A stretch of 48,316 nt of DNA, from NCBI GenBank assembly GCA_016214995.1, contig JACRML010000063.1:1-48316 (forward strand), in the 5' to 3' direction. Source of the stretch: Deltaproteobacteria bacterium. GTDB lineage: Bacteria > Desulfobacterota > GWC2-55-46 > UBA9637. Position 1 is the first letter of the stretch, and each line of letters starts with the position of its first letter. The notes beneath the pieces are model-generated. The model saw only the letters and a list, made by a program, of their open reading frames with translations. It made no database searches and was not told the DNA's origin. Both the position numbers and the translations under genes were made by a program. Positions 35,011 to 43,977 of this stretch are shown here, piece by piece.

Positions 35011-36261
35011 ATGGTCTACAGACTGGAAACAATCTCACTTGAAGATAAGGCGGTTGAAAGACTTCTTCAAGGCAAGCCCTTTAAAGAGCTATCGCCGCGG
35101 GATAAATTATCTATTGCATATTATCACTTGGAAAAACTACGACAACTTAACGGCGGTTATATCTCTTCGCCTTATCACGGGCAAAATGGCGGAGATAAAT
35201 ATAACGTATTCTGGCTCAGAGACATAATGTATGCAACCTATGCCAATGAGTATATTGGCGCATATGATAAGATGATAGAAAGCTACAGGCTTATCCTGAG
35301 GATATTTCACAAATATCAGCACAAGATACTGCTTGGGGCAAGAAAGCGCCATTATCTTGGAAGCTGTGCCGGAGAGGTAATCCATGCAAGGGTTCACCCT
35401 ATTACATTGGAAGAGATAACCCGTGAATGGGGACATCATCAACTGGACATACTGGGTCTGTTTCTCTATAAGACCGGCGACCTTATGAAAAAGGGTTATA
35501 ACCCGCTAACCACAGACCAGATGGAGACCCTGATTCTCCTGAGAGACATAGTTCTCTACCTCATAACGGTAAGATGGCATTCTGACCCTGATTTTGGCGT
35601 GTGGGAAGAAGGCCCTGAAGTTCATGCATCCAGCATAGGTTCAGTCCTTGCTGGCCTTACCATGTGGCATGACGATGGATATTACCATTCAAAATATTCA
35701 AGCCAGGTTGATATACACAGATTTCTTTCCATACCCGAGGAGTTTATTGAAATGGGACGAAAAAGCCTGGATACTATACTGCCATGTGAATCAGCATCCA
35801 GGCAGTATGATATGGCGCAGTTGAGTCTTATCTGGCCGTATAATATTGCATCAGAAATGCAGATTAAGCAGATACTTCGTAACATAGAAAACGAACTTGT
35901 TAGAAGAAATGGTGTCATAAGGTATCCCGGTGATAAATATTTTAATGCAAGCCACGATAATCCTGTTGGCAATGAGGCAGAGTGGCCTTTAGGGTTTGCA
36001 TGGCTCAGCATAGTCTATTCAAAACTTGCACAGCGCAGCATAAAAAATGGCAATATCTTTGGCAAACCCCAGGAGCAGATAGATAAGGCAGAGATGTACC
36101 TTGAGAAACTTGAATCGGTAATGACAGAAGACGGCAAGGTGCCTGAACTCTACACCTATGGAAGGGAAAATTGGAATGTGCCTCTTGCATGGGCGCAGAG
36201 CTTTTATATTGTTGCGCGGCAGAGCCTCAACTGGGTTTATGAAATAACCGCCCAGGTTTAA
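35011..36261 (+). CDS. GH15-like glucosidase (phosphorylase-kinase-alpha type)
   Basis: The 416-residue cytosolic protein has an alpha/alpha-barrel pattern: KYNVFWLRDIMYATYANEYI, the Glu-rich FGVWEEGPEVHASSIG and VGNEAEWPLGFAWLSIVYSK near the C-terminus. The paired acidic residues fit a glucoamylase-like inverting glycosidase. It may hydrolyse internal glucans or trehalose-type substrates. There is no signal peptide. The start at ATG 35011 lacks a strong ribosome site. It is unrelated to the CRISPR locus that begins 500 bp downstream. Confidence 0.7.
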   Translation: MVYRLETISLEDKAVERLLQGKPFKELSPRDKLSIAYYHLEKLRQLNGGYISSPYHGQNGGDKYNVFWLRDIMYATYANEYIGAYDKMIESYRLILRIFHKYQHKILLGARKRHYLGSCAGEVIHARVHPITLEEITREWGHHQLDILGLFLYKTGDLMKKGYNPLTTDQMETLILLRDIVLYLITVRWHSDPDFGVWEEGPEVHASSIGSVLAGLTMWHDDGYYHSKYSSQVDIHRFLSIPEEFIEMGRKSLDTILPCESASRQYDMAQLSLIWPYNIASEMQIKQILRNIENELVRRNGVIRYPGDKYFNASHDNPVGNEAEWPLGFAWLSIVYSKLAQRSIKNGNIFGKPQEQIDKAEMYLEKLESVMTEDGKVPELYTYGRENWNVPLAWAQSFYIVARQSLNWVYEITAQV

Positions 36262-36286
36262 AGACTGGGTGGAAGGTATTTGAGTT

Positions 36287-36648
36287 TTAATGAGACTTAT
36301 CAATAAACTCTTTTGCTAATTTTAAAGCGCCTTTAACACTATCTGTACTGTGCAAAAGCCCCCTATAGTATCCTGCATCAATATCATCAAACTGCCTTAA
36401 AAGCGTTCCATTGTGCGCAGATACATATTTTTGAAAAGCCTTCCAGTATTCCTCTACCTTTTTGGACAAATCTTTTTTGTAACTCCTTTTTTTAACAACA
36501 TCTCATTTATTGCCTCAAGGATACCAAGATATGCTACTCCGCAAGCAGATTTTACATATTTAACATCTGAATAACGATTATCTTCTATAGGAGACTTCTT
36601 TAATATTGCCTTTGCATTCTCCAAATATCTTAATGACTCTTTTTTCAT
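36287..36648 (-). pseudogene. DUF5618-like protein with a one-base frameshift
   Basis: Two minus-strand frames make one conserved protein of about 120 residues. The N-terminal half is MKKESLRYLENAKAILKKSP, KYVKSACGVAYLGILEAINE and LKKGVTKK. The C-terminal half is LSKKVEEYWKAFQKYVSAHN and RQFDDIDAGYYRGLLHSTDS. The shift is at 36473-36478, where the T run (A run on the minus strand) has six bases and seven would restore the frame. The helical fold resembles HEPN-like domains, but the RxxxH spacing is not the classic motif. It is read away from cas9 on the opposite strand. Confidence 0.7.
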
Positions 36649-36697
36649 AGGTTCATTAAATCATCTTTTTATTGGTTTTCAAATATTTTTTGTGATG

Positions 36698-36726
36698 TTG
36701 ATATTTCAAAGAGCATATGATAAGTA
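36698..36726 (+). promoter_or_regulatory. Candidate cas9 promoter containing a repeat-like segment
   Basis: TTGATA (36698-36703) and TAAGTA (36721-36726) have a 17-nt spacing, 41 nt upstream of the cas9 ATG. The spacer contains TTTCAAAGAGC, identical to 11 bases of the CRISPR repeat; allowing one missing T, 36701-36714 matches 14 of 15 bases. It may be chance or a target for RNA-guided autoregulation. Confidence 0.35.
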
Positions 36727-36767
36727 TTATTTGCCACAGCATTTGTCATAATCAAGGGTAAATAAAA

Positions 36768-39083
36768 ATGGAAAGAGAAATTGTTTTAGGAATTGATTAC
36801 GGCGGCAAATATACAGGTCTTGCGATTGTTGACCGAAGACATAATCAGGTCTTGTATGCCCGCACAGTAAAGATGCGGGACGATGTCGCTGATATTCTCA
36901 AAGGCCGCAGAGAGCAGAGAGGCATCAGAAGAACCGCTCAAACCAAAAAGAAGCGTTTGAGAGAACTCAAAGACTATCTAATAAGTATTGGATATAACGA
37001 ATCCACAGCAATATTTAAAACGGCTTACGGCCTTGCCCATAAGAGAGGTTATGATTACGCCGATATACCTAAAGAAAAGACTCCCGAAGAAATAGAGGCA
37101 ATGGATGCCGAAGATAGAAAACTATGGGAAAAAGAGAAAAAGGAGTGGGAAGAGACAAAAAGAAATTCAAGGCACAGGGAAGAAGTTTTAAAAGATGTTC
37201 GTGAGGCAATGTCTAAAGGAGGAGCGGCAGGCGAGCAGATTAAAAGGGTTGAGCGAATTTTTAATAAGCAGTATCGGCCAAAAAGATTTAATAATAGAAT
37301 TTTGACCAAGTGCAAGGTTGAAGGCTGCGGAAAAAACACTCCTCTCAGAAAAAACGCGAGGGACTTGCTGTTAGAGGATAAAATCAGATGGCTGCCTATG
37401 GAACAAGCAGACAGGAATAAACTTAAAACTGCGCTTCTTGAAAAGAAAAAAGAAGATGTTGACGAGATGTTTAAAACATACAAGGTAAACAGCGAGATAA
37501 GAAAGCAAATCAGAGACATGGCTTATAACGAGAAACTTTCAGGCAGGACGGTTTTTTGTAAGAAGCATATCCTTGAACATACTGAACATACAAAAGAGGG
37601 AAGAAAGGTTTTCAGGCTTGCGCCGTCTTTAAAGACAAAGATTGAAAATGTGCTTGCGGTCATAAAAGACGAGGTTTTGCCGCGGTATCAATTCGGCAAG
37701 GTTGTGATGGAGACCAATAATTTTGACATAGAAGTAAAGACGCAAGGGAAAAAGAAGGAAACATCCGATGATGGTCAAGATGCAAATTCGGATGAAAAAC
37801 TGGGTTTGAGGCAAAGGCTTATAAAAGAAACAAACGGCCAATGTGTCTACTGTGGTGCGAAAATAAATGAATCAAACATGGAGATTGACCACATATTTCC
37901 GGTAATTGCCGGAGGATTGAATATTTATGCTAACATGGCGGCATCGTGCAAGAAGTGTAATGGCGATAAGAAGGGGAGAACTCCTCAAGAAGCCGGGAAA
38001 TTTCCGATACCTGGAATAATTGATGCTATAAAGAAAAATCTAAAGCCCAAATTTGTTAGAAGAAAGATAGGCAGGGTTACAAGGAAGTTTGCCGTTTATA
38101 ACGATTTGAAAATCAAAATCCTTGAAAATGCAAATAGCCACCAGACCTTGGATTTCAATAAATATATGTCTCATGCCTCTATAGGCTGGCGACATATGAG
38201 GGACAGGTTAAGAGAGGAGACCAAAAATCAGGATCTGATTATTGACAGAAAACACGGGTATCAAACCGCGCATTTCAGAAAGTGGTGGCCGGATTTTATC
38301 AAAAAGCAGGCTGACGACAAGCATCATGCCCTTGATGCGGTAATCCTTGCATCAAGATGGGAGACCGATAAAAACGGTTCGCCGGATCCGTTGCACAAGC
38401 CCGTTGACAAGGAAGGCAATGAGTTTGACCCAAATAAGCATCTGACGATTGAAACAAAGAAATTTACGAGGGATAAGGGCAGCAAGGGTTCTGCATTGCA
38501 TGATAGAAACCCGCTGTCTTATAAGAAGGGCATTATTACCAGAAGATTTATGGTTACAGAGATTGAGTGCGGTAAAGAAGACGATGTTATTTCCGAGGCA
38601 TATAGTGAAAAGCTAAAAGAGGCTTTTAAACGATTTGATACAAAAAAAGGAAAATGTTTGACAGACAAGGAAGCAAAGGAAGCAGGTTTCTGCATTAAGA
38701 AGAATGAAATGGTTATGAGCCTTAAATGCACCATTAAAGGAACCGGGCCAGGGCAGATGATAAGAATCAATAATAATGTTTTTAAGACGAATGTCCATAA
38801 TGTTGGCGTGGATGTTTATCTTGATGAAAAAGGTAAGAAAAAAGCATACGAGCGAAAGAATCCAAGACTGTCAAAACACCTCATAGAACCACCACCGCAG
38901 CCTAATGGGAGAGTTTCATTTACCTTAAAACGAAGAGATATGGTTACAGTTGAAGGTGAAGACACAATCTATAGAATAAAAAAACTCGGAACATCTCCTA
39001 CAATAGAAGCAGTTGTTGGCAGTGATGGAAAAACAAGGACTGTCTTGGCCACCAAGCTGACAAAAGCAAACAATGCTGAATAG
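36768..39083 (+). CDS. cas9: Compact Cas9 (type II-D-like RNA-guided nuclease)
   Basis: The 771-residue protein is about half the size of Streptococcus Cas9. Ruv[19 protein letters not shown], Asp10. Arg-rich bridge helix: about residues 45-70 ([14 protein letters not shown]). Recognition lobe: only residues 70-300, with a zinc site C182/C187 and C264/H267. Ruv[15 protein letters not shown], Glu315. HNH domain: C359/C362, EIDHIFP with His375, then C394/C397 and Asn398. Ruv[17 protein letters not shown], His520 and Asp523. The last 240 residues are the PAM-side domain. All catalytic residues are present. The HNH zinc CxxC pairs are an IscB-like trait, but the N-terminal PLMP domain of IscB is absent. 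It lies upstream of tracrRNA, array, cas1, cas2 and cas4. Size and cas4 fit type II-D (Cas9d); a II-C variant cannot be excluded. Confidence 0.9.
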
Positions 39084-39183
39084 TTTTTAAAATTAAATGT
39101 CCTAACCCACAATAAAGGCGCCATTTCTGGCATAGAGGCTCAGGCTGGACAAACCCAAGCGTATATCCCTTCACTGTATAGGC

Positions 39184-39300
39184 GTTTTACAATTAAGGCT
39201 CTTTTGAATTTCGCAAACCCCTATGGGTTTAATTCAAAAAATATATTTTCGGAAATTTTGCGATTTGCTTCTGATAAACCCTTTGAATTTCCAGCAAAAC
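39184..39300 (+). ncRNA. tracrRNA
   Basis: TTACAATTAAGGCTCTTT (39187-39204) is the reverse complement of the 3' half of the CRISPR repeat with one mismatch. After a bulge, CGCAAAC (39212-39218) pairs with the repeat 5' end (GTTTCACG). So the + strand carries an anti-repeat for crRNA made from the same strand. Downstream are hairpin AAACCC-CTAT-GGGTTT (39215-39230) and a long hairpin with GGAAATT (39251-39257) and AATTTCC (39286-39292), extended by TTTT/AAAA. TCGCAAA/TTTGCGA can pair as an alternative. It has no terminator and stops 7-8 nt before the first repeat, so it may be co-transcribed with the array. The exact ends are inferred. Confidence 0.8.
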
Positions 39301-39307
39301 AAGAACG

Positions 39308-39564
39308 GTTTCACGCCATATTTTCAAAGAGCCTTAACTGTAACTGAGGTAAATCCCCGCGCATCCAGAACCGTGCCGTTGTTTCACGCCATATTTTCAA
39401 AGAGCCTTAACTGTAACCTCCAACAGACTTCATCTGTGTCATCAGGGTCGGATGTTTCACGCCATATTTTCAAAGAGCCTTAACTGTAACTCCGTGTCGG
39501 CATCGGTATTGCCGCTGTGGATTCTCAGTTTCACGCCATATTTTCAAAGAGCCTTAACTGTAAC
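39308..39564 (+). CRISPR. CRISPR array, four repeats and three spacers
   Basis: The 37-nt repeats are identical at 39308-39344, 39381-39417, 39454-39490 and 39528-39564. Each begins GTTTCACGCCATATTTTC and ends CCTTAACTGTAAC. Spacers are 36, 36 and 37 nt (39345-39380, 39418-39453, 39491-39527) and all differ. The tracrRNA anti-repeat shows that the functional crRNA is read on the + strand. The leader is either the tracrRNA side (upstream) or 39565-39649. The lack of repeat degeneration and the small size suggest a young or slowly acquiring array. Confidence 0.97.
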
Positions 39565-39649
39565 AAAACGCATTTGCAATAAAGTTCAAACTGATATATG
39601 TTTACACTATCTTTTCTGGAAATTCAAGTGTTTATTTAGGGAGGTCTAT

Positions 39650-40843
39650 ATGGATAATGAAACATCAAAAATCCTCCGCATTCATCCGGAATACCAACCA
39701 GCAGAAAAACTTCCGCCTGCACAGTTCAATCTCTTTACAGGAGAAGCAGAGCCAATTCCACAACTGATTGACAAAAGTATTGATGACGAAATATTCATTG
39801 ACAATGGGATTTCGCTTATACAGAGCGGAGATTCCTCGCAGATAGTTCTGTCAGGTTTTGGTATTTTCCTGAGCAAGAAAAGTGAGCGCCTTATTGTAAA
39901 AAAGAGCAGTAAGGTTATTTATGAATTTCCTTTTTTCAGACTGAATGAGGTTATTGTATGTTCAAGGGGCGTGTCATTATCTTCCGACCTTGTTGAAGAG
40001 TTATGCCAAAGGGGGATAAGGCTGAATTTTTTGACAAATAGCGGCAAACCATATGCAATGCTTTCCTCGCCCATGCTCTCTGCAACGGTTGTATCCAGAA
40101 GAGAGCAGATTATGGCGTTTAATGATGAAAGGGGGCTTGAATTCTCAAAGGCGGTTGTAGAAGGAAAGATTGTAAATCAGGAAAGGCTTATAAGATATTT
40201 TGGCAAGTATATTAAGACCGTAGATATTGACAGATTTAATAAACTTGAAGGGATTGCTGATGATATTAAAAAGATGAGCGGGCAGGTAGATAATATTGAC
40301 GGGCAAAATATTGAAAATGCAAGAGGTGGTTTGATGGCAATAGAGGGTATATCAGGCAGATTATATTGGGGCGCGGTCAAAGAGATTATTGCAGGAAAGG
40401 TTGAGTTTTTCGGCCGCGAGACAAGAGGGGCAGTGGATAAGGTAAACTCTCTCTTAAATTATGGTTATGGCATTCTCTATTCGCATGTCTGGGGCGCAAT
40501 TATAAATGCAGGTCTTGAGCCGTTTGCGGGATTTCTGCATGTGGACAGGCCCGGCAAGCCGTCTCTTGTTCTGGACCTGATTGAGGAATTCCGCCAGCCT
40601 GTTGTTGATAAGGTTGTAATTGCCCATATCAACCTCGGGGAATCCATTGACATGAAAAATGGATTGATTGAAGAGGAAACAAGAAAGGCGATAGGAAGCA
40701 AAATTATAGAGAGGCTGGAAAGCCAGGAGGTATTTGAAGGAAAGAAATATAGAATCAGGTCTATTATCCAGATACAGGCAAGAAATCTATCGGCTTTTTT
40801 GAGCGGCAGAAGAAAGTATAAGGCATTCAGGTTCAAGTGGTGA
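39650..40843 (+). CDS. cas1: Cas1 integrase with N-terminal extension
   Basis: The 397-residue protein is the CRISPR spacer integrase. The core begins near IVLSGFGIFLSKKSERLIVK (residue 66) and includes Glu232 in IEGISGRLYW, His297 in GFLHVDRPGKPSL and Glu312 in DLIEEFRQPV, the metal-binding triad. The first 65 residues (RIHPEYQPAEKLPPAQFNLF, EPIPQLIDKSIDDEIFIDNG) are an extra segment not seen in standard Cas1 of 300-340 residues. GGGAGGTC precedes the ATG at 39650. Cas2 starts 1 nt after the stop. It works with Cas2 and probably Cas4 in spacer acquisition. Confidence 0.95.
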   Translation: MDNETSKILRIHPEYQPAEKLPPAQFNLFTGEAEPIPQLIDKSIDDEIFIDNGISLIQSGDSSQIVLSGFGIFLSKKSERLIVKKSSKVIYEFPFFRLNEVIVCSRGVSLSSDLVEELCQRGIRLNFLTNSGKPYAMLSSPMLSATVVSRREQIMAFNDERGLEFSKAVVEGKIVNQERLIRYFGKYIKTVDIDRFNKLEGIADDIKKMSGQVDNIDGQNIENARGGLMAIEGISGRLYWGAVKEIIAGKVEFFGRETRGAVDKVNSLLNYGYGILYSHVWGAIINAGLEPFAGFLHVDRPGKPSLVLDLIEEFRQPVVDKVVIAHINLGESIDMKNGLIEEETRKAIGSKIIERLESQEVFEGKKYRIRSIIQIQARNLSAFLSGRRKYKAFRFKW

Positions 40844-40844
40844 T

Positions 40845-41117
40845 ATGGAAGAGCATACTGTTTATATTTTCTATGACATAGAAGACGACGGCATCCGCAA
40901 TAAGGTAGCAGAGACCTGCAAAGACTATGGGCTTCAAAGGATTCAATTCAGCGGATTTTCAGGCATGTTGGGCAAAAATAAGCGTGAAGAACTTTTTTTA
41001 AAGCTTTCCTTTCTCATTGGCGATAAAGCCGGAAAACTCCTTATGCTCCCTGTTTGTGAAAAAGACATCACTGCCAAAAGGGAACTCATACAGGAAAATA
41101 GAGATGATTCAGATTAG
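40845..41117 (+). CDS. cas2: Cas2
   Basis: The 90-residue ferredoxin-fold protein VYIFYDIEDDGIRNKVAETC … QRIQFSGFSGMLG is a typical Cas2, with the Asp of the YDIEDD segment. Cas2 forms the central dimer of the Cas1-Cas2 integrase complex. It starts 1 nt after cas1 and overlaps cas4 by 14 nt, so the adaptation genes are one operon. Confidence 0.95.
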   Translation: MEEHTVYIFYDIEDDGIRNKVAETCKDYGLQRIQFSGFSGMLGKNKREELFLKLSFLIGDKAGKLLMLPVCEKDITAKRELIQENRDDSD

Positions 41118-41679
41118 GGTTAGCGACATTAAACAGTTTGTCTATTGTCAAAGGGTTGTGTTCTATAACTATGTTATGCCTGTTGATAAAAAGACAACCT
41201 TTAAGATGGAATATGGAAAGATAGCAGAGGATAAGATAGACAGATTGGAAAACAGAAGGAAACTTAAGGAATATGGCTTGTCCAGCGGCACGAGAGAATT
41301 TCATAAACAATTATATTCTGAAAAATATGGTTTGTCCGGCAAGGTGGATTTGCTCATAAAAACGGATGCTGCGTACTATCCTGTGGATTTTAAATATACT
41401 ACCTCGCAGCCCCATAAAAATCATCTTTATCAGCTTTTGGGCTATGCTATAATTCTTGAGGATATTTATGATTACGTTATCAGAAAAGGTTTTGTATATT
41501 TGATTCCAGAAGAGGATGCTGTGGTTTTTGATTTGAGTGATGACCTAAAGGACGAAACTAAAAATCTGTTGAGCGAGATAAGAAAAATGATACACTACCA
41601 GCAAATTCCTCCGCCTGTAAAATCGCAAGCCAAATGCCTTGATTGCGAATATCGTAATTTTTGCGGAGATGTATTTTGA
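41104..41679 (+). CDS. cas4: Cas4 nuclease
   Basis: The 191-residue protein has the RecB-like nuclease core (EKYGLSGKVDLLIKTDAAYY, PVDFKYTTSQ with catalytic Asp and Lys). Its Fe-S cluster cysteines are Cys15 in FVYCQRV and a C-terminal group in KCLDCEYRNFCGD. Cas4 trims prespacer ends and selects PAM-bearing fragments before integration by Cas1-Cas2. The start at ATG 41104 (after GGAAAATAGAG) overlaps cas2. Cas4 in a type II locus is uncommon and supports the II-B/II-D-like assignment; Cas9 here is far too small for II-B. Confidence 0.9.
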   Translation: MIQIRVSDIKQFVYCQRVVFYNYVMPVDKKTTFKMEYGKIAEDKIDRLENRRKLKEYGLSSGTREFHKQLYSEKYGLSGKVDLLIKTDAAYYPVDFKYTTSQPHKNHLYQLLGYAIILEDIYDYVIRKGFVYLIPEEDAVVFDLSDDLKDETKNLLSEIRKMIHYQQIPPPVKSQAKCLDCEYRNFCGDVF

Positions 41680-41688
41680 ACGGATAAT

Positions 41689-42234
41689 ATGCCTCTTTCA
41701 AACGAAGATAAATCGCTCCTCTTGAAAATTGTGCGGGAGACGATAGAATCCTATGTCAAAACAAAAAAGATTCCCTGTTTTAATGTGAAGAGTCCTGTCT
41801 TGCTGGAAAAACGAGGGGCATTTGTTACTATCAGTAAAAATCATGAACTCAGAGGATGTATAGGCGTATTTACAACAGACAAGCCGCTCTATTTAACTGT
41901 AGCAGATATGGCCGTTTCTGCCGCTGTTCATGACCCCCGGTTCGTGCCGCTTGTTGCATCTGAACTTTCTCATATTTCTATTGAGATTTCCTGCCTTTCG
42001 CCGATGAAGAAGATAAAGGACATATCTGAAATTGAAGTTGGCAGACACGGGTTGTATATTGTTAAGGGATATTACAGAGGCGTTCTTCTTCCCCAGGTGG
42101 CTACAGAATGTTGCTGGGATAGAACTCAATTCTTAGAACATACCTGCTTGAAGGCTTGCCTGCCGCCAAATGCTTGGGAAGATGGGGCCGAGATATATAC
42201 CTTTGAGGCAGAGGTGTTTGGGGAGAAGGGGTGA
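41689..42234 (+). CDS. AMMECR1-domain protein (AmmeMemoRadiSam protein A)
   Basis: The 181-residue protein matches the AMMECR1 family: GAFVTISKNHELRGCIGVF with the conserved RGCIG motif, HDPRFVPLVASELSHISIE, and the catalytic-looking LLPQVATECCWDRTQFLEHT. Members of the AmmeMemoRadiSam system act with a MEMO1-like protein and a radical SAM enzyme in an uncharacterised modification. Neither partner is visible here. It starts 9 nt after the cas4 stop on the same strand, so it is probably co-transcribed, but a CRISPR function is not established. A 9-bp hairpin (42222-42244) overlaps its stop codon. Confidence 0.85.
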   Translation: MPLSNEDKSLLLKIVRETIESYVKTKKIPCFNVKSPVLLEKRGAFVTISKNHELRGCIGVFTTDKPLYLTVADMAVSAAVHDPRFVPLVASELSHISIEISCLSPMKKIKDISEIEVGRHGLYIVKGYYRGVLLPQVATECCWDRTQFLEHTCLKACLPPNAWEDGAEIYTFEAEVFGEKG

Positions 42235-42244
42235 ACCCTTCTCC
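42222..42244 (+). terminator. Hairpin at the AMMECR1 stop codon
   Basis: GGAGAAGGG and CCCTTCTCC form a 9-bp stem with loop GTGAA that contains the stop codon. No U-tract follows. It may end or stabilise the cas1-cas2-cas4-AMMECR1 transcript. Confidence 0.4.
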
Positions 42245-42444
42245 AGACAGAAGGTTGCAGAGTTTCAAGTCTAAGCACAGGAATAGCCTTTACTCCAGAA
42301 AGCAATTCATTTCTGGACTTAAAACCCCAAGGTTTTCCTGTTGATTATATAACTTATAATAAATTCACATACACTGTGGTAAAATACACAGCCTCAACAC
42401 CATTGCACAGACACAGTGCATTGTGTTAAGTAGATAATATAAAT

Positions 42445-43977
42445 ATGGCGATACATCCTTTTAACCCAGAAAATGCACTTGCATTTTCTGCCAAACGCAA
42501 TCCCCTGATAAAAACCTTCAGGGGCAGGCTCTGGCCAAATACTGCGTCAAATCTGGCTGTTCAAATACTCACATATCTAAAAGAGTATGCTTTGTTTTGT
42601 TCACCCATCTTTTCCTTGCCCCCTGATAGAAACCTTCAGGGGCATGCTTTGGCTCAAATCTTGCGTTTGCCCCGAAAAATAAAAACTAAATGTATTTTTC
42701 AGGTTAAGGCTATCAGCGTCATAGTATTCAGCACCCTCCTGCTGTTACTTTTCAATGCAAACTCAGAGGCTGTGCCTGCATTTGCAAGGAAATACAAGAC
42801 AAGCTGTATGACCTGTCACATTGTTTTTCCAAAATTGAATACTTTTGGCGAAGCCTTTCGAAGAAATGGATATCAAATCCCTGATGCAGATGAGAGATAT
42901 GTCAAGGAAAAGCCTGTCAGTTTGGGTGCAGAGGCATGGAAAGAGGTTTGGCCCGGAGGAGTATGGCCTGGTGAAATTGCAGGAAGTGCGCCATTTTCTT
43001 TGGTGGCGAATTCACTCTACCGGTACGACTCCGATTCCCGGGTGAAGCATGATTTTACCTTTCCTGATGAGATAGAAATTCTTTCAGCAGGCACTCTCGG
43101 TGAAGACATATCTTTTCTCGGCAGCATCGCACTGATTGAAGATGGAAATAATTTTGGAGGTGTAGAAAGGCTTTTTCTGCGGTTTGACAATCTGTTTGAC
43201 CATGGTTTACCGAAGCATTTTTTGAACTTAACCATCGGCCAGTTTGAACCGTCAGTAACACCATCCTCGAATCGCCGCCGTCTGACCCACACGCCGTATC
43301 TATCCAACACCTTTGAGGTTGGCAAAAACAACTTTCACTTTTCAGATCAAAGGGGGATAGAGATAGACGGTATGGCAAAAAGCCGCTTATCATATGCCCT
43401 TGGTGTGGTTAATGGGAACGGCACAGGAAAGATGGATAGCGGCTCTTTGGATAACAATTCAACAAAAGATGTATATCTAAAGGTTGGATACAAATTCGGA
43501 GGATTGGGGTTGGACGGCTTAGGCATTGGGACAGAAGAGAGGGCAGGTCTGCCGGAGATTGGGTTAGAAAAGTCAATCTCTGTCAGTGCATTGGGTTATT
43601 ATGGAGAAAATAGGATTTCGGGTTTTAATACTGATGACCAATTTTACCGGTATGGTCTTGCATTTGACATCAATTATGACAGCATTAATCTGTTTGGTGC
43701 GATTGTCCAGGGGAAACACGATAATCCGAGAGGCGATTTCATGAAAACTTTGGTAACCTCCTATTTTTCTGAAGCTGATATTATTCTTTACCCATGGCTT
43801 GTTGGCATATTAAGATATGATGCAGCAGATATAGAACATGAAAACAAGAGAGATGAGGTGGTTATGGGTATTGTGGCGCTGATTCGCACAAATATAAAAC
43901 TTACTATAGAAGGGGTGCTGCATACAACAGGGGGCGGTAGCGATAAGGGGCTTATTAAATTGGCTTTTGCCCTTTAA
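42445..43977 (+). CDS. Cytochrome c-porin outer-membrane protein
   Basis: A haem-binding motif (TSCMTCHIVFPKLNTFGEAF) follows a signal peptide (AISVIVFSTLLLLLFNANSE). It is followed by 350 residues of beta-barrel pattern with alternating aromatic strands (SVSALGYYGENRISG, LVGILRYDAADIEHENK). Proteins of this type are probably outer-membrane porin-cytochrome conduits. The ATG at 42445 lies upstream of the TTAACCC element (42461-42707), whose sequence encodes about 80 residues in frame. A TTG at 42661 within the element would give a shorter signal peptide. So the element has supplied or replaced the natural start; the true N-terminus is uncertain. Confidence 0.75.
   Translation: MAIHPFNPENALAFSAKRNPLIKTFRGRLWPNTASNLAVQILTYLKEYALFCSPIFSLPPDRNLQGHALAQILRLPRKIKTKCIFQVKAISVIVFSTLLLLLFNANSEAVPAFARKYKTSCMTCHIVFPKLNTFGEAFRRNGYQIPDADERYVKEKPVSLGAEAWKEVWPGGVWPGEIAGSAPFSLVANSLYRYDSDSRVKHDFTFPDEIEILSAGTLGEDISFLGSIALIEDGNNFGGVERLFLRFDNLFDHGLPKHFLNLTIGQFEPSVTPSSNRRRLTHTPYLSNTFEVGKNNFHFSDQRGIEIDGMAKSRLSYALGVVNGNGTGKMDSGSLDNNSTKDVYLKVGYKFGGLGLDGLGIGTEERAGLPEIGLEKSISVSALGYYGENRISGFNTDDQFYRYGLAFDINYDSINLFGAIVQGKHDNPRGDFMKTLVTSYFSEADIILYPWLVGILRYDAADIEHENKRDEVVMGIVALIRTNIKLTIEGVLHTTGGGSDKGLIKLAFAL
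42461..42707. mobile_element. MITE-like TTAACCC element, copy 3
   Basis: The 247-bp element has ends TTAACCCAGAAAATGCAC and TTTTTCAGGTTAA, with two internal CCCCTGA-type hairpins. It is homologous to 26816-26944 and, inverted, to 305-497. It lies within the reading frame of the cytochrome-porin gene. It is the longest copy and may be the fullest form. Confidence 0.75.

Follow-up and report, generated by a model that had tools for sequence, protein, structure and literature searches.

A complete type II-D CRISPR-Cas locus with a mosaic cas9 in a Deltaproteobacteria bacterium

We analyzed contig JACRML010000063.1 (C33; assembly GCA_016214995.1) of a Deltaproteobacteria bacterium, a stretch of 48,316 nucleotides (nt) referred to here as the window, and found that positions 36768 to 41679 carry a clustered regularly interspaced short palindromic repeats (CRISPR)-Cas locus of type II-D. 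The order is cas9, trans-activating CRISPR RNA (tracrRNA) and array, cas1, cas2 and cas4, followed by an AMMECR1-family gene. We are confident that this is a complete and probably functional locus whose mosaic cas9 was joined by homologous recombination. Its Cas9d has the part that reads the protospacer-adjacent motif (PAM) and the guide scaffold of the best-studied member of the group, Cas9d-MG34-1, together with a different cutting core. Cas9d proteins are small enough for use as editors, and a complete natural locus is known for few of them. The initial annotation had reported cas9, a tracrRNA, a four-repeat array and cas1-cas2-cas4 as a complete type II locus, and all of these components were recovered. 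Gene content, residues, RNA pairing, subtype and mosaicism are direct results of the analysis.

The nuclease core of Cas9d differs from its flanks

cas9 (36768 to 39083, plus strand) is an open reading frame (ORF) of 771 codons without an internal stop. Its product runs through RuvC-I, an Arg-rich bridge helix, a zinc-ribbon recognition (REC) lobe, RuvC-II, HNH, RuvC-III and a C-terminal wedge and PAM-interacting region (WED/PI). The closest PDB match is Cas9d-MG34-1 (9AUF, 8W2S, and 8W2Z; 747 amino acids [aa]), with 75% identity over the full length; the next is 9LGI, at 63%. Alignment-based queries of genome contigs located the genes of both, after a single-protein query had given no match. 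The MG34-1 gene lies in Deltaproteobacteria bacterium GWF2_42_12 (G440; L036/L068; 99.5% identity), which belongs to the same family as the source genome but to another genus, and the 9LGI gene lies in Nitrospirae bacterium RBG_13_39_12 (L034; 100% identity). A fourth Cas9d was found in Nitrospirae FK_Sedi_A_Bin.59 (L035).

Identity to MG34-1 was 76% over residues 1 to 313, 55% over residues 314 to 571, and 95.5% over residues 572 to 771; the values for MG34-1 versus 9LGI over the same three blocks were 67, 78, and 72%. When the core was divided further, MG34-1, 9LGI and the L035 protein were mutually 66 to 84% identical in most sub-blocks, against 39 to 75% for the present Cas9d versus each of them. 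The divergent block, comprising RuvC-II, HNH and RuvC-III, spans 37674 to 38480 (plus strand; about residues 303 to 571). Within it, between HNH and RuvC-III, is a 22-residue insert (residues 423 to 444; 38034 to 38099, plus strand) that is without counterpart in the three public Cas9ds aligned. Synonymous divergence (dS) between this cas9 and the MG34-1 gene was 0.68 for residues 1 to 203, saturated for 204 to 560, 0.27 for 561 to 600, and 0.10 for 601 to 771. On the left side, identity changes gradually and not at one join. Near position 38,480, nucleotide identity to the MG34-1 locus rises from about 0.6 to 0.7 to about 0.97, a level that is held through the tracrRNA.

A permutation test (20,000 permutations) was carried out for a block in which MG34-1 agrees with a third sequence (L034 or L035) against this cas9. 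Both for amino acids and for first and second codon positions, 0 of 20,000 permutations equaled the observed block with either third sequence (amino-acid block 303 to 556), and third positions alone were significant with L034. That the nuclease core is mosaic is a genuine property of the contig sequence, and the step at 38,480 and the permutation tests indicate that recombination produced it. The initial annotation was right that the parts of this Cas9 are intact, but it missed the mosaic core.

We consider it likely that the protein is a natural Cas9d chimera in which the nuclease core was exchanged between lineages by homologous recombination, while the bridge helix and start of REC, the PAM-interacting domain and the guide scaffold remained of the MG34-1 type. 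Either the core may have been replaced, or the flanks may have been replaced around a native core; no donor was found. One candidate donor of the core, 9K32, was rejected because it was no closer than others in a PDB search with the core block (231 versus 238 bits). If the chimera is real, nature has made the opposite of the customary PAM-domain swap, and the Cas9d core is an exchangeable module; pairing this Cas9d with the MG34-1 guide would allow both the exchangeability of the core and its effect on activity to be probed. Our searches of the open-licence literature turned up no earlier description of a core swap in a natural Cas9.

A discordance of a similar kind was noted among the public Cas9ds. 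REC3 of RBG_13_39_12 (residues 204 to 254) is 33 to 58% identical to that of L035 and L036, and residues 1 to 203 are about 78% identical. This REC3 discordance (residues 204 to 313) suggests that block exchange may recur in the Cas9d family.

The locus appears to have been exchanged and lost within the family

AMMECR1 was present in 8 of the 8 family genomes examined. It lies directly 3' of cas4 in GWF2_42_12, in G436 (same genus as the source genome) and in G439; the G436 contig ends just upstream of cas1, and that of G439 ends inside cas1. No cas gene was found ahead of AMMECR1 in the stretches examined of G437, G173, and G090. In G438 (C119; L097 1-430), the gene ahead of cas9 in GWF2_42_12, which encodes a nucleotidyltransferase, abuts the final 45 codons of cas4, with AMMECR1 next. 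This scar, joining the upstream gene to the end of cas4, shows a deletion by which G438 lost the CRISPR locus.

Over the stretch that starts with cas1 and includes the 5' half of cas4, the present locus, GWF2_42_12 and G436 mostly share 92 to 99% nucleotide identity, whereas AMMECR1 of this locus and of GWF2_42_12 are 69 to 77% identical. At the protein level, baseline identity between the source genome and GWF2_42_12 runs from 75% (AMMECR1) to 80% (a GH15-like protein), against 95.7% for Cas1. That cas1-cas2-cas4 are far more alike than the adjoining AMMECR1 indicates recombination of the locus between genera. A step of the same sort occurs within cas4 between G436 and G439, where nucleotide identity changes from about 0.85 to 0.99. 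The simplest reading of these sequence comparisons is that genera have exchanged this locus repeatedly by homologous recombination and that the cas9 mosaic is among the results. The family would then show a single chromosomal CRISPR site that is swapped between genera and deleted in one genome. A contig end in G439 also carries the N-terminal part of a further, distinct Cas9d-like protein (C71:34-528; L069; Cas9d model E value, 4.9e-42).

Guide RNAs and predicted PAM

The CRISPR array (39308 to 39564, minus strand) consists of four identical 37-nt repeats, starting at 39308, 39381, 39454, and 39528 and reading GTTACAGTTAAGGCTCTTTGAAAATATGGCGTGAAAC in the CRISPR RNA (crRNA) sense, and three spacers. 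The repeat is identical to that of the native MG34-1 array; apart from this locus and that of GWF2_42_12, it occurs in 0 of 63 genomes of the class. The tracrRNA (39090 to 39218, minus strand) begins with an anti-repeat at about 39218 to 39186, whose partner is the 5' portion of the repeat as read on the minus strand (duplex energy, -29.6 kcal/mol). None of 1,000 mononucleotide shuffles reached this value (mean, -17.4; minimum, -28.7). The strand that carries the tracrRNA and the crRNAs is thus not the one that carries the cas genes.

Downstream of the anti-repeat, the tracrRNA forms three helices: P2 is long and interrupted, P3 is a stem, and P4 is a hairpin of sequence GCCA-GAAA-UGGC. This layout agrees with the P1-P4 guide described for Cas9d-MG34-1 (PMC11706934). 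Folded by itself as a single strand, the tracrRNA gave no significant result (z = -1.23), and conservation across loci was used as evidence instead. Across the four Cas9d loci, 98.1% of alignment cells pair, compared with 28 to 50% when one side is slid. Three pairs vary on both sides; covariation is modest, as the four sequences are related. In its core, the tracrRNA shows few differences from its counterpart in the MG34-1 locus. An Rfam search of 36000 to 42500 returned no match.

Spacer 1 (39345 to 39380, minus strand; 36 nt) matches carB, encoding the large chain of carbamoyl-phosphate synthase, in the same-genus genome G436 at 34 of 36 positions (C117:1809-1844) and the host's own carB at 29 of 36. 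From the G436 match, spacer 1 looks to have been acquired from the chromosome of a sister species. Searches for targets of spacer 2 (39418 to 39453, minus strand; 36 nt) and spacer 3 (39491 to 39527, minus strand; 37 nt) were negative. The probable leader, judged from its position between the array and cas1, is 39565 to 39649.

The MG34-1 residues that read the PAM or position the DNA are K649, N651, N654, K715, and G634 (PMC11706934), and all five are kept here, at 673, 675, 678, 739, and 658, respectively. Given the identical repeat, the nearly identical tracrRNA and these conserved contacts, we predict that this Cas9d uses an NGG-type PAM and is exchangeable with MG34-1 with respect to the published guide. 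By extrapolation from published Cas9d work (PMC9755519), cutting may be staggered.

We infer expression, cleavage, PAM and the direction of recombination as follows. The array would be transcribed from the minus strand, and the crRNA repeats would pair with the anti-repeat of the tracrRNA, so that a dual RNA (anti-repeat plus P2-P4) loads the 771-aa Cas9d. The PAM-interacting domain, which resembles that of MG34-1, would read an NGG-type PAM, and the complex would cut both strands at staggered positions, HNH the target strand and RuvC the other. Cas1, Cas2 and Cas4 would acquire spacers. As to origin, the 5' part of cas9 (RuvC-I to REC), the C-terminal WED/PI and the tracrRNA would derive from the MG34-1 lineage, and RuvC-II, HNH and RuvC-III from a divergent, unsampled Cas9d lineage, homologous recombination having brought the two together at a CRISPR locus subject to recombination between genera. 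An active effector is suggested by this sequence evidence.

The locus belongs to subtype II-D

Cas9 scored 424.2 bits on the NCBIfam Cas9d model NF049971 (cut-off, 375), 49.1 bits on the general Cas9 model TIGR01865 (cut-off, 100) and 77.9 bits on the IscB model NF040563 (cut-off, 175). For comparison, the three public Cas9ds scored 495 to 531 bits on the Cas9d model, and six long Cas9s of the same class scored 520 to 737 bits on the general model. A tree was built from the four Cas9ds, nine long Cas9s and two IscBs, leaving out archaeal II-D and defined II-A and II-B references. In it, this Cas9 grouped with the three other Cas9ds at 97/96, and the nine long Cas9s stood apart at 100/100; the protein does not branch inside II-C, the outcome that would have spoken against the original assignment. 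Together with the Cas9d model score and the identity to MG34-1, this placement bears out the II-D label, and, within what sequence can decide, the subtype is settled as II-D. The cas1-cas2-cas4 adaptation set is among the features defining II-D in the 2025 classification (PMC12669027).

The six catalytic residues named in the initial annotation were all located by alignment. Glu315, His375, Asn398, His520, and Asp523 occupy invariant columns across the 15 proteins, and Asp10 is invariant among the four Cas9ds. The predicted zinc sites were likewise present and common to the four Cas9ds, in which the HNH pairs C359/C362 and C394/C397 and the recognition-lobe sites C182xxxxC187 and C264xxH267 are invariant. 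The HNH CxxC pairs occur in Cas9d and IscB and in none of the nine long Cas9s compared. Arg and Lys make up 21.5% of the protein, and its isoelectric point is 9.7.

The locus is a further member of the already characterized Cas9d group, not a new kind. The original description of a plausible new effector overestimated its novelty, as published work already covers its closest relative, Cas9d-MG34-1, from cleavage and PAM to cryo-EM structure and editing (PMC9755519, PMC11706934). The two loci share the gene order through AMMECR1, the repeat, a nearly identical tracrRNA, the PAM-contacting residues, the zinc sites and a 95.5% identical C-terminal 200 residues. They differ in the gene upstream of cas9, in the spacers, and in a Cas9 that is 24 residues longer here, with the 22-residue insert and a RuvC-II/HNH/RuvC-III region only 55% identical. 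The RBG_13_39_12 Cas9d has the same domain plan and zinc sites, with a tracrRNA and a 3' half of the repeat that resemble ours, but it is 63% identical overall and differs in REC3. Its locus (L034 4026-10014) has an array, and cas1, cas2 and cas4 were not detected within the 10 kb examined; the outermost repeat of that array is degenerate. Long type II-C Cas9s share the RuvC and HNH active sites and a dual-RNA guide, but they are 920 to 1,150 aa long, lack the HNH CxxC pairs (0 of 9) and fall below the Cas9d cut-off. The RRXRR start (PF14239), the HNH zinc pairs and the compact size recall IscB/HEARO, which are about 430 aa long and are guided by one omega RNA, not by a CRISPR array and a tracrRNA.

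Alternative explanations

Several observations weigh against a functional locus with a recombinant cas9. The source genome is fragmented (1.98 Mb in 99 contigs, 82.5% complete). In the permutation test, third positions alone were not significant with L035 (1088/20000). No donor of the core block was found in searches of genomes, phages, plasmids and viral contigs: when 395 genomes of the phylum were searched with the whole protein, the matches besides this locus were at HNH level only, and phages, plasmids and viral contigs held no full-length Cas9d relative. An AlphaFold prediction from four sequences reached a mean predicted local distance difference test score of 46, and the model was not used. 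The triplet adjoining the seed side of the G436 carB site, the sole protospacer-like site, is AGC in guide orientation, not the NGG that MG34-1 prefers. Finally, phages and viral contigs contained no convincing target for spacers 1 to 3, matches with E values of 0.1 to 0.4 having been dismissed.

The main rival accepts the II-D locus and holds that the mosaic is an artifact, the assembler having fused two co-occurring Cas9d loci at a common stretch. Besides the fragmentation of the source genome, the contig breaks of the metagenome-assembled genomes G436 (upstream of cas1) and G439 (in cas1) speak for it, since they suggest that the locus is hard to assemble. However, the reading frame is intact across both transitions, the gradual left transition is not what a single join would leave, and similar steps occur in independent assemblies (cas4 of G436 and G439 and REC3 of RBG_13_39_12). 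We regard such a chimera as unlikely, though a serious candidate.

We consider it improbable that only a decayed or inactive remnant is present. An array of only three spacers and the negative phage search are compatible with decay, and G438 demonstrates that the locus can be lost; on the other side, the four repeats are all identical, every gene and active site is intact, and the tracrRNA fold is conserved.

We find it improbable that the nuclease core simply evolved unusually fast without recombination, for instance under anti-CRISPR pressure on HNH. In its favor, this Cas9 falls within the Cas9d clade in a tree of the core block, where its branch is long (0.8 versus 0.08 to 0.17). Fast protein change nevertheless fails to explain a dS that leaps from 0.10 to saturation within the same gene pair, and G+C content at third codon positions is similar across the cas9 blocks (0.34 to 0.45). 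Furthermore, RuvC is the best conserved part (93%) between MG34-1 and its reconstructed ancestor (PMC11706934), the reverse of the comparison made here, in which the core is the least conserved.

The possibility of a short Cas9 of subtype II-C accompanied by a borrowed cas4, which weak similarity of the HNH region to the II-C Cas9s 8d2k and 4ogc in the PDB search might suggest, was rejected as having practically no likelihood on the model scores, the separation from long Cas9s in the tree, the IscB-like HNH zinc pairs and a Cas1 score below the type II NMENI cut-off (81.5 versus 120).

Adaptation genes and flanking genes

The adaptation module is intact: cas1, cas2 and cas4 each exceed their NCBIfam cut-offs. 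cas1 (39650 to 40843, plus strand; 397 aa; TIGR00287, 238 bits versus 71.7) is the sole cas1 in the contigs of the source genome examined. Its start was corrected to 39650, as a longer, 463-aa ORF reads back into the array. Cas1 contains the motifs AIEG, HVDR and LDLIEEFR; its identity to the corresponding proteins of two further Cas9d loci is 80 to 96%. About 64 residues (39650 to 39840) extend the protein N-terminally ahead of the Cas1 domain, an extension also seen in Cas1 of GWF2_42_12, G436 and L035. cas2 (40845 to 41117, plus strand; 90 aa; TIGR01573, 48.8 versus 24.5) overlaps cas4 (41104 to 41679, plus strand; 191 aa; TIGR00372, 116 versus 65) by 14 nt. Cas4 carries the RecB-type nuclease motifs and four cysteines (C15, C178, C181, and C187).

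The AMMECR1-family gene (41689 to 42234, plus strand; PF01871) lies outside the CRISPR system and serves as a conserved downstream anchor within the family. Upstream of cas9, two adjoining minus-strand ORFs (36287 to 36648) each match one half of DUF5618 (PF18498); the small gene here looks to have been split by a frameshift or a stop.

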